From the NCBI RefSeq assembly GCF_001648175.1, contig NZ_CP015243.1:1426001-1490000 (forward strand): DNA of 64,000 nucleotides. The letters run 5' to 3'. A model generated the notes under the pieces. It was not told where the DNA came from. It ran no database searches and saw nothing but the letters and a program-made list of their open reading frames with translations. Made by a program: the position numbers and the translations under genes. The DNA comes from Halotalea alkalilenta (GTDB lineage Bacteria > Pseudomonadota > Gammaproteobacteria > Pseudomonadales > Halomonadaceae). This document shows positions 39,138 through 44,994 of this stretch, in pieces. The first letter of the stretch is position 1, and each line of letters starts with the position of its first letter.

Positions 39138-43383
<4,246 letters not shown>

Positions 43384-43413: not shown

Positions 43414-43447
43414 CGCAACGGCCACCTTCGGGTGGCCGTTGCGTTTT
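43414..43447 (+). terminator. Intrinsic terminator after eno
   Basis: A 13-bp perfect stem, CGCAACGGCCACC (43414-43426) with GGTGGCCGTTGCG (43431-43443), closed by a stable TTCG tetraloop and followed by TTTT. It lies 30 bases after the eno stop. Confidence 0.92.
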
Positions 43448-43457
43448 CGTCCTCCGC

Positions 43458-43499
43458 TGGCTCAGCTCGAATCGCGCTTGGCTCAGTTCGAATCGCGCC
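43458..43499. repeat. 21-bp tandem direct repeat downstream of eno
   Basis: Two adjacent 21-base units, 43458-43478 and 43479-43499, begin TGGCTCAG and end TCGAATCGCGC; they differ at two positions. The role is unknown. Confidence 0.7.
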
Positions 43500-43806
43500 T
43501 TCGCCTCGCGCGCCCATCTCACGATACTCGTGCGCTCCAATCGCGATCATGGGTTAGCCCAAGGTCTCGTTGACCCTCGGTTCGCAGGGCGCGGAGGATG
43601 AAATTCATATCCTCGCTCTCAGGCTTTCTTCACTTCATGACTCGCGCAGTGGGAGGAGAGCGCAACGAGTGTTCTGGCGCATTCAGGCCAAAGGCGCGTG
43701 CGGTACGACAGGATCGTCGTCTCCGTACAGGGAAGGTGCCTAGGGATGTCGGATCAAGGATGAGGCCCTGGGGACGCTTGGACGCCGAGGTGGTCTCTGG
43801 GCCACC

Positions 43807-43834
43807 TCTTCATGACCAATTCTTCATGACCAAT
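43807..43834. repeat. Perfect 14-bp tandem direct repeat inside the candidate RNA
   Basis: TCTTCATGACCAAT is present twice in direct succession (43807-43820 and 43821-43834). It lies in the linker between a hairpin with arms GAGGTGG / CCACCTC (43787-43808) and the first GGA-loop hairpin. Confidence 0.75.
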
Positions 43835-43984
43835 CGGCTGGCGACTGACATGGAGATGTCACCTCGCCAGGCTAGCCTGGTGAGGCTGCGACCTAGAACA
43901 CGAGGAGGCCACGATGGGTCTCCCGGACGGCAAGGAGGCCGAGGCGTGGCCGTTCCAGGGAGGGTGTGGAACTAGTGGCAAGCG

Positions 43985-44017
43985 CGACACCGATGAGCGA
44001 TCGGTGTCGTTTTTTTT
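43985..44017 (+). terminator. Intrinsic terminator of the candidate small RNA
   Basis: Stem CGACACCGAT (43985-43994), loop GAGCG, stem ATCGGTGTCG (44000-44009) and eight T residues. The orientation is plus, so it cannot serve the minus-strand lysR gene that ends at 44023. Confidence 0.92.
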
Positions 44018-44022
44018 GCGTT

Positions 44023-44994
44023 TCAACGTTCGCCTTTTGGGTGTGGCGGGACGGCCGGCGTCGATTTGCGCAGAGGCTTCGACGGCGCCAGCTCTTCGAC
44101 CTGGCTGCGCAGCGCCTGGATCGTGTCGATGAACGCCCGCAGGCCCGCCGGCATATGGCGATTGCCGGGAAAATACAGCGACAGCCCCGGTATGCGGGGA
44201 CACCAGTCTTCCAGCACGCTCACCAGACGCCCGTCATCCAGCGCGGCATGGGCGTAGGGTTCGGGCACGTAGGCCACGCCGAGACCACCGATGGCCGCCT
44301 CCACCATCAACGAGTTGCTGTCGAGCGTCAGCGTGCCGGGCACGTCGATCTCGACGGTTTGCCCGCGCTTGCTGAATTCCCAGCGGTAGCGTTTGCCGCT
44401 GGGCAGGCGCTGGCGGATGCACTGGTGCTGGGTGAGCGCGTCGGGCACTTCCGGTGCCGGTCGTTGCGCCAGGTAGCGTGGTGAGGCCACCGCCAGAAAG
44501 CGGATGTCCGGCCCCAGCGGTATCGCCACCATGTCCTTGGGCACGGCCTCACCCAAACGAATGCCGGCATCGAAGCCCTGCTCGACGATATCCACCAGGC
44601 GTCCTTCCGCGACGAGATCCAGGTCGACGCCGGGATAGCGTGCCAGAAACTCGGGTACCACCGTGCGCAGCAGCAAGCGGATCGCGACGTCATTGCCGTT
44701 GATGCGCAGCTGGCCTTGCAGATGCCCCTGTTCGCCGGTGACGTCCTCGAGTGCCGCATCGAGATCGTGCATCAACGGATCGAGCCGGCCGAGCAGGCGC
44801 GTTCCCGCTTCGGTCAGCGCCACGCTGCGCGTCGTGCGGTGAAACAGGCGCACGCCCAGGCTGTCTTCCAGGCCACGAATGGCATGGCTCAGCGAGGGGC
44901 GGGCGATGCCCAGAAAATCGGCCGCGCGACGAAAGCTGCGGTGCTCGGCGACCGCGATGAAGGCCCTGAGGTCGGACAGCGTCGGTTTGCTCAT
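44023..44994 (-). CDS. LysR-family regulator (CrgA/DsdC-like), divergent from SDR cluster
   Basis: 323 aa. The helix-turn-helix is AFIAVAEHRSFRRAADFLGIARPSLSHAIRGLEDSLGVRLFHRTTRSVALTEAG, with GQLRINGNDVAIRLLLRTVVPEF and VDLDLVAEGRLVDIVEQGFDAGIR in the effector domain, the pattern of the large subgroup that controls divergent dehydrogenase genes. It ends only six bases from the terminator of the proposed RNA. The divergent gap to 45107 contains its probable operators, so it most likely controls the adjacent SDR-esterase operon. Confidence 0.92.
   Translation of the reverse strand: MSKPTLSDLRAFIAVAEHRSFRRAADFLGIARPSLSHAIRGLEDSLGVRLFHRTTRSVALTEAGTRLLGRLDPLMHDLDAALEDVTGEQGHLQGQLRINGNDVAIRLLLRTVVPEFLARYPGVDLDLVAEGRLVDIVEQGFDAGIRLGEAVPKDMVAIPLGPDIRFLAVASPRYLAQRPAPEVPDALTQHQCIRQRLPSGKRYRWEFSKRGQTVEIDVPGTLTLDSNSLMVEAAIGGLGVAYVPEPYAHAALDDGRLVSVLEDWCPRIPGLSLYFPGNRHMPAGLRAFIDTIQALRSQVEELAPSKPLRKSTPAVPPHPKGER

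Follow-up and report, generated by a model that had tools for sequence, protein, structure and literature searches.

What is encoded in the ~580 nt between the enolase gene (eno) with its terminator and the convergent LysR-type gene of Halotalea alkalilenta, where no conserved protein gene is seen? A sequence-only reading of the window, that is, the whole 64,000-nt stretch of DNA analysed here, taken from a 4.39-Mb genome on a single contig, proposed a CsrB/RsmZ-like regulatory RNA downstream of eno. For CsrB and RsmZ it is established that hairpins with A(N)GGA bind CsrA dimers. We consider it very probable that ~43690-44017 holds a small RNA of the Rsm/CsrB type, a diverged ortholog that serves as a GacA-independent CsrA sponge. 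The homology of its core, its structure, the presence of csrA, a genome in which no GacA ortholog was found, the lack of a GacA box at the locus, an old terminator that has lost its T-tract and a new one ~200 nt downstream are computed results. Its sequence further suggests one RNA of ~320 nt that would run through the old terminator, bind CsrA and titrate it.

Layout, fold and GGA content of the region

The locus is framed by the following features:

42091..43383, plus strand: eno (enolase), an ORF used as the syntenic anchor
43414..43443, plus strand: intrinsic terminator of eno, between eno and the RNA, with a 13-bp stem, a 4-nt loop and a T-rich tail
43598-43975: 125-aa ORF overlapping the RNA region, from the ORF list
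43984..44017, plus strand: present-day intrinsic terminator with T8 (stem 43984-44010, T8 44010-44017)
44023..44994, minus strand: convergent LysR-type gene, sitting where many relatives have fdxA after the RNA

Enolase was matched at E ≤ 1e-100 in 34/34 genomes searched, and its comparison gives Halomonas, Billgrantia, Salinicola, Larsenimonas, Cobetia and Chromohalobacter among the closest named relatives. The names LysR and fdxA were assigned from the sequences themselves rather than from a domain-library scan.

The plus-strand terminator with a 10-bp stem and eight T residues, with which the sequence-only reading ended the RNA, is present as described: the stem consists of 10 bp, CGACACCGAT/ATCGGTGTCG, plus a G-T pair and is followed by T8, and 43984..44017 is identical in the sister genome, the one other genome of this genus in the comparison. 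The RNA region 43690-44012 is strongly folded (z -5.1, with 100 dinucleotide shuffles for each region), with z -6.0 for 43830-44012 and a weaker -2.8 for the core, 43690-43815.

The GGA content, put at 13 triplets in 260 nt and taken as a hallmark of RNAs that titrate CsrA, needs correction. We count 12 in 43723-43982 and 13 in 43690-44017, and the stated two- to threefold excess shrinks to 1.6-1.7-fold against base composition (mononucleotide shuffles: 7.0 expected, p 0.018, and 8.3 expected, p 0.05, respectively), while it stands against the rest of the window, where 13 GGA fall in the top 0.22% of all 328-nt stretches on both strands (mean 4.3). Dinucleotide shuffles give 10.1 (p 0.25) and 11.3 (p 0.30), neither of them significant, and the raw count, which fits these shuffles, is a weak hallmark on its own. 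A(N)GGA is nearer to the CsrA consensus than bare GGA, and this motif is enriched in the 328-nt RNA region (10 compared to 4.4 expected, p 0.0125). The claim that GGA triplets lie in loops holds for those at 43711, 43758 and 43852 of the predicted fold, the remaining ones being partly or wholly paired; several A(N)GGA motifs, some of them in hairpin loops, are a trait of the CsrB/RsmZ class that the window RNA shares.

For the start of the RNA, no sigma-70-like promoter was found at the locus, and a sigma-54-like candidate picked by eye had the wrong spacing; we claim no promoter. A palindrome, GCGGAGGATGAAATTCATATCCTCGC at 43592-43617, lies ~80-100 nt before the core of the RNA, is nearly identical in the sister genome and may be a hairpin or an operator.

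Homology of the core to a Halomonadaceae RNA

In many relatives eno is followed by a palindrome close to the GacA box, a GGA-rich RNA with a terminator behind it, and a convergent fdxA. From 14 such RNAs of other Halomonadaceae we built a covariance model, R1, excluding the window and the sister genome; the training set draws none from the window's genus and only G010 from the larger clade without GacA. The 14-RNA alignment folds with RNAalifold into 33 pairs, in 20 of which one sequence or more differs at both positions. The window RNA lies directly after eno and on the same strand, as in the family, and holds:

43693..43813, plus strand: Rsm/CsrB-type RNA core, homologous to the 3' two thirds of R1 (R1 match of 49.7 bits, model positions 67-185 of 185)
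43697..43728, plus strand: conserved hairpin of the predicted fold with AGGATC in its loop (43710-43715), a putative CsrA site

The match to 43693-43813 has an E value of 3.6e-14 when the window plus L002 is searched, and genome-wide it is the sole one at E ≤ 0.01 (E 2.4e-12, under strict filters with 9 candidates scored). The sister locus reaches 52 bits, and a bare eno terminator hairpin, which gives the scale for 49.7, only 18.2 bits. Local alignment of the core to the family RNAs averages 164, compared to 83 for shuffled sequences, none of which (0/200) scored as high. In an alignment of 11 rows fitted to the R1 structure, A4 (10 matches in relatives and that of the window), 95.5% of the cells pair and 22/33 pairs have changed on both sides, pairing and covariation scores that 0/500 shuffles reach; in family helix 2, the counterpart of the hairpin at 43697..43728, this holds for 9/10 pairs. 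The claim of a CsrB/RsmZ-like RNA downstream of eno is therefore supported by a model match that is independent of the window, together with the presence of csrA. It is the homology of the core that decides the identity of the RNA as the diverged counterpart, by orthology, of an Rsm/CsrB-type RNA for which Rfam has no model.

R1 matches of at least 49 bits follow eno in 15/23 family genomes examined, 10 of them in the training set and 5 outside it (L145, L146, L150, L155 and L159). In whole genomes, 247/275 of the family match at E ≤ 0.01, including weak matches near the limit that may be partial. At the DNA level the locus is far more restricted: searches of 58, 2 and 275 genomes gave full-length matches only in the window genome (G000) and the sister genome (G001), and four relatives matched the eno-terminator stretch alone. 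The other matches are short, with E from 6.7e-4 upward (275 genomes, two candidates scored per genome), except for one of 23 bp at another place in the genome of the window (L007; E 2e-4 to 4e-4), which was read by eye.

The same elements as in the Halomonadaceae RNA, a place after eno, a hairpin with GGA in its loop, the CAGGGAAG motif and an AAGGAT hairpin, occur in the window in the same order through the terminator hairpin. With PrrB/RsmZ (RF00166) and CsrB/CsrC (RF00018, RF00084) the window RNA shares repeated A(N)GGA in hairpins and an intrinsic terminator, but it reaches none of the three models. The covariance check that the sequence-only reading had called for thus turned out divided, with a match to our own model and Rfam CsrB and RsmZ models that stay under their cut-offs. 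At the gathering threshold Rfam has no match in the window, and relaxed searching yields four at the locus, with E 1.2-8.1; as the gathering cut-off is not reached, we do not file the RNA under RF00018 (CsrB) or RF00166 (PrrB_RsmZ).

Rfam is equally silent on the relatives. Neither CsrB nor PrrB_RsmZ gave anything over its cut-off in 38 genomes each; below it, 55 bits were scored by CsrB in G043, a genome of another family, and the PrrB_RsmZ test is uncalibrated because no control genome passes its cut-off. The eno-downstream RNAs scanned with Rfam had no match over a cut-off. Below it, related family RNAs resemble RF00166 (L015, E 1.6e-5; L016, 0.0025; L069, 0.043) and, in L161, RF00084 (E 7.8e-5). 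A sequence downstream of an rpoS-like gene in G022 (L016:1553-1699) passes the Rfam cut-off for PhrS, at 38.8 compared to 37 bits, as the sole sequence of that scan to pass any; it is also RsmZ-like and matches R1, and the PhrS call is possibly a cross-hit of that model.

GacS/GacA, the GacA box and CsrA

We searched 37 family genomes with UvrY of E. coli K-12 as the query and found a GacA ortholog in 27 (E ≤ 6.3e-56, at least 48% identity) and none in the other ten (G000, G001, G008, G010, G014, G016, G017, G018, G031 and G036), whose best UvrY matches have E 1.8e-26 to 9.5e-19 or are absent at E ≤ 1e-18. The window genome is among the ten, its best match reaching 3.8e-24 at 34% identity. BarA/GacS at E ≤ 1e-60 is likewise absent from 9/10 of these genomes, the window's included (15 candidates scored per genome), the match in the tenth, G016, covering the kinase core only (residues 257-522), and present in 25/27 genomes with GacA (E ≤ 6.4e-89). 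The two without it, G004 and G027, have GacA and no BarA match at E ≤ 1e-60. In E. coli uvrY sits before uvrC; the gene at that place in G000 and G017 is not gacA.

A tree of eno (30 rows, one protein) unites G000, G001, G008, G010, G016, G017 and G018 in a single clade (100/98) and places G014 elsewhere; G031 and G036 are not in the tree. Within these seven, 4/7 keep the RNA after eno. A full-length R1 match is missing there in G008 and in G017 and G018, the last two of which adjoin the window's genus in the tree, and the RNA would therefore not be indispensable in genomes without GacA.

The GacA box is TGTAAG-N6-CTTACA. We looked for it within 420 nt downstream of eno in the 15 genomes that carry the RNA there: a site with no more than 2 mismatches occurs in 11/11 that have GacA and in 0/4 of those that do not, where the best sites have 3 to 6 mismatches. 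In the window no box follows eno, the best site having 5 mismatches (p 0.98); since it is also absent in G010 and G016, we do not treat the box as defining for the family RNA. Genome-wide scans with at most 3 mismatches return 208 sites in G000 and 224 in G001, compared to 436 and 418 in the reversed control, and no exact box is listed for either genome. At the single G000 site with 1 mismatch (L176) no GGA-rich RNA is seen by eye.

Activation by GacA/UvrY is typical of the CsrB/RsmZ class, and the window genome does not show this trait. A review describes RsmW and RsmV of Pseudomonas aeruginosa as CsrA/RsmA-binding RNAs that do not depend on GacS/GacA, are confined to P. aeruginosa and probably arose independently (PMC7366521). 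Because RsmV and RsmW are described as lacking activation by GacA, we do not take such activation as class-defining; unlike them, the RNA studied here has orthologs that carry a GacA box, and it sits in a genome in which no GacA was found.

The presumptive target is kept. CsrA was found in 25/25 genomes searched, and the window genome encodes an intact CsrA of 63 aa (G000:C1:1511682), closely alike by eye to the Halomonas CsrA sequence printed in PMC12889724. As a separate observation, no Rsm-like RNA follows eno in L156 (G004), L067 and L068 (named Salinicola), L156 and L068 having the same sequence there.

Changes in the 3' part, competing readings and proposed role

The RNA differs from that of the family at both ends, and the features concerned are:

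43634..43692, plus strand: possible 5' part of the RNA or promoter, to whose start (43634) the R2 match extends
43787..43808, plus strand: remnant of the ancestral terminator hairpin, T-tract lost, by R1 alignment to the family terminator
43802..43829, plus strand: 14-nt tandem repeat just past the old terminator, with a 14-nt gap in the sister genome
43814..43983, plus strand: extension module, structured and GGA-bearing, present among the genomes searched only in this genus
43847..43860, plus strand: hairpin GACAT-GGAG-ATGTC, which is GACAC-GGGG-GTGTC in the sister genome

Whereas the family RNA usually has a GacA box upstream and, in many relatives, fdxA beyond it, this locus has no such box and a LysR-type gene next door; its 5' third is unrecognisable, the T-tract is lost, and an extension of ~200 nt leads to a new terminator. 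A counterpart of R1 positions 1-66 is not recognisable: the aligned part of the model begins at position 67, and shuffled sequences align locally with the 14 family RNAs just as well as 43586-43692 does (p 0.63); R2, which reaches further upstream, is a model trained on the window core among others. The old terminator hairpin is followed by TTCATG instead of a T-run, leaving the RNA without the terminator of its own that usually ends the ~185-nt family RNA, a trait that we do not treat as defining because inner copies in Larsenimonas also lack one.

From the old terminator the extension runs ~200 nt to the new one at 44017. Credible DNA matches to its module occur only in G000 and G001 of 275 genomes (two candidates scored per genome), and its GGA is not enriched (6 compared to 6.2 expected for 43814-43983). 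A second Rsm copy at 43874-44017 is not established, a match to the Rsm model having E 0.079 and that of R2 E 0.15; local alignment of the module to the Rsm core gives p 0.005 on the mean and 0.125 on the maximum, and a homology between the two is only suggested by these values.

Comparison with the sister genome, per 30 nt, gives identities of 0.5-0.93 over 43440-43679, 0.93-1.0 over 43680-43799, 0.53-0.67 over 43800-43859 and 0.97-1.0 from 43860 on. The LysR gene past the terminator is at 0.97-1.0 as well, so that high identity towards the 3' end is no sign of the RNA when taken alone. Of the 13 GGA, 11 are at the same positions in the sister. The hairpin at 43847..43860 has a compensatory change from T-A to C-G at 43851/43856 and loses its GGA there, and in the predicted core fold the pairs 43743/43768 and 43739/43772 are broken in the sister.

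A second remodelled form is found in Larsenimonas suaedae (L069), which an eno tree of 8 rows with named relatives puts in the same clade as the window genome (100/99). Downstream of its eno, R1 matches four times in tandem (L069:5637-6367); by eye the first three matches have no T-run and the last has one, and there is no GacA box (best site, 3 mismatches). Place, clade, the lack of a box and an early module without a T-run are common to both loci; the four copies are clear in Larsenimonas, whereas the window's second module is doubtfully a copy.

Three other readings of the locus have to be weighed. That it is no RNA gene at all, and that hairpins have arisen by chance in GC-rich DNA between genes or in a short protein gene missed by annotation, is scarcely credible: the raw GGA count fits dinucleotide composition and a 125-aa ORF overlaps the region, yet the covariance model finds it genome-wide at E 2.4e-12, and the 14-nt indel relative to the sister genome cuts across that ORF. 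We also regard as improbable that a remnant is decaying here, an Rsm RNA made useless by the loss of GacS/GacA, with the lost terminator and the missing 5' part as the marks of decay. The absent GacA box, the unrecognisable 5' third, the lost T-tract and the want of a full-length match after eno in the nearest genera, G017 and G018, and in G008 would suit it, but a core at 43680-43799 that is 93-100% identical to the sister between flanks at 50-93% upstream and 53-67% over 43800-43859 does not, nor does the retained A(N)GGA enrichment, and in Larsenimonas, a member of that clade that also has no box after eno, the RNA has multiplied.

The remaining reading accepts the core as ancestral Rsm and makes today's product another structured small RNA, acting for example by base-pairing, namely the module at 43830-44017 with the Rsm core as its 5' part. 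Folding is strongest in this module (z -6.0), which from 43860 on is conserved like the core, has the compensatory change and is not enriched in GGA. We nevertheless judge this unlikely, as the core keeps its GGA hairpins in the family register and the module is itself weakly similar to the Rsm model (E 0.079).

On the preferred reading of a CsrA sponge, several A(N)GGA motifs in or next to the hairpin loops of the window RNA would be presented to CsrA dimers, which would be drawn off mRNAs, relieving or activating the targets of CsrA. With GacS/GacA control apparently gone, expression may be constitutive or under another regulator, and the level of the RNA would follow growth or that regulator. 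For the lineage as a whole, we lean slightly towards a clade of Halomonadaceae that lost GacS/GacA together with its DNA site and kept and rebuilt the CsrA sponge, this genus by read-through into a new structured module and Larsenimonas, which is placed in the clade by eno, the GacA search covering other members, by tandem copies, into what would now be a constitutive or differently controlled buffer. To our knowledge, no orthologous RsmZ-type RNA has been reported as rewired into a GacA-independent CsrA buffer; if true, this would be the first rewiring of such an RNA from a signal-switched to a constitutive or differently controlled one. The window lineage would then be a natural experiment in how a CsrA sponge that has lost its dedicated two-component system behaves and is switched on.

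What is new is an Rsm-like RNA downstream of eno that has no Rfam match over a cut-off; GacA-independent sponges as such are known from RsmV and RsmW. Among the matches listed, no paper title concerned an Rsm/CsrB RNA in Halomonadaceae, and earlier predictions (CSRNA_FIND, 2006) are possible. For the Gac-Rsm system of Halomonas anticariensis, a review table gives the sponge RNA as 'Unknown' (PMC7366521). The eno-downstream RNA with a GacA box is likely the sponge RNA of the Halomonas Gac-Rsm system and becomes a strong candidate for that role in many Halomonadaceae, H. anticariensis lying outside those compared. R1 could seed a new Rfam entry.

More widely, in L065, L066, L072, L073, L075, L081, L152-L155, L157-L159 and L161-L164 eno is followed by a GGA-rich RNA that has a GacA box or a palindrome resembling one. 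Most of these RNAs are followed by fdxA, for which the search pattern found nothing in L065 and L066. Loci of the Cobetia type (L155, L070) have a very long GGA-rich stretch after eno, with 39 GGA in 1166 nt in L155, which is perhaps a giant or multi-copy sponge RNA.
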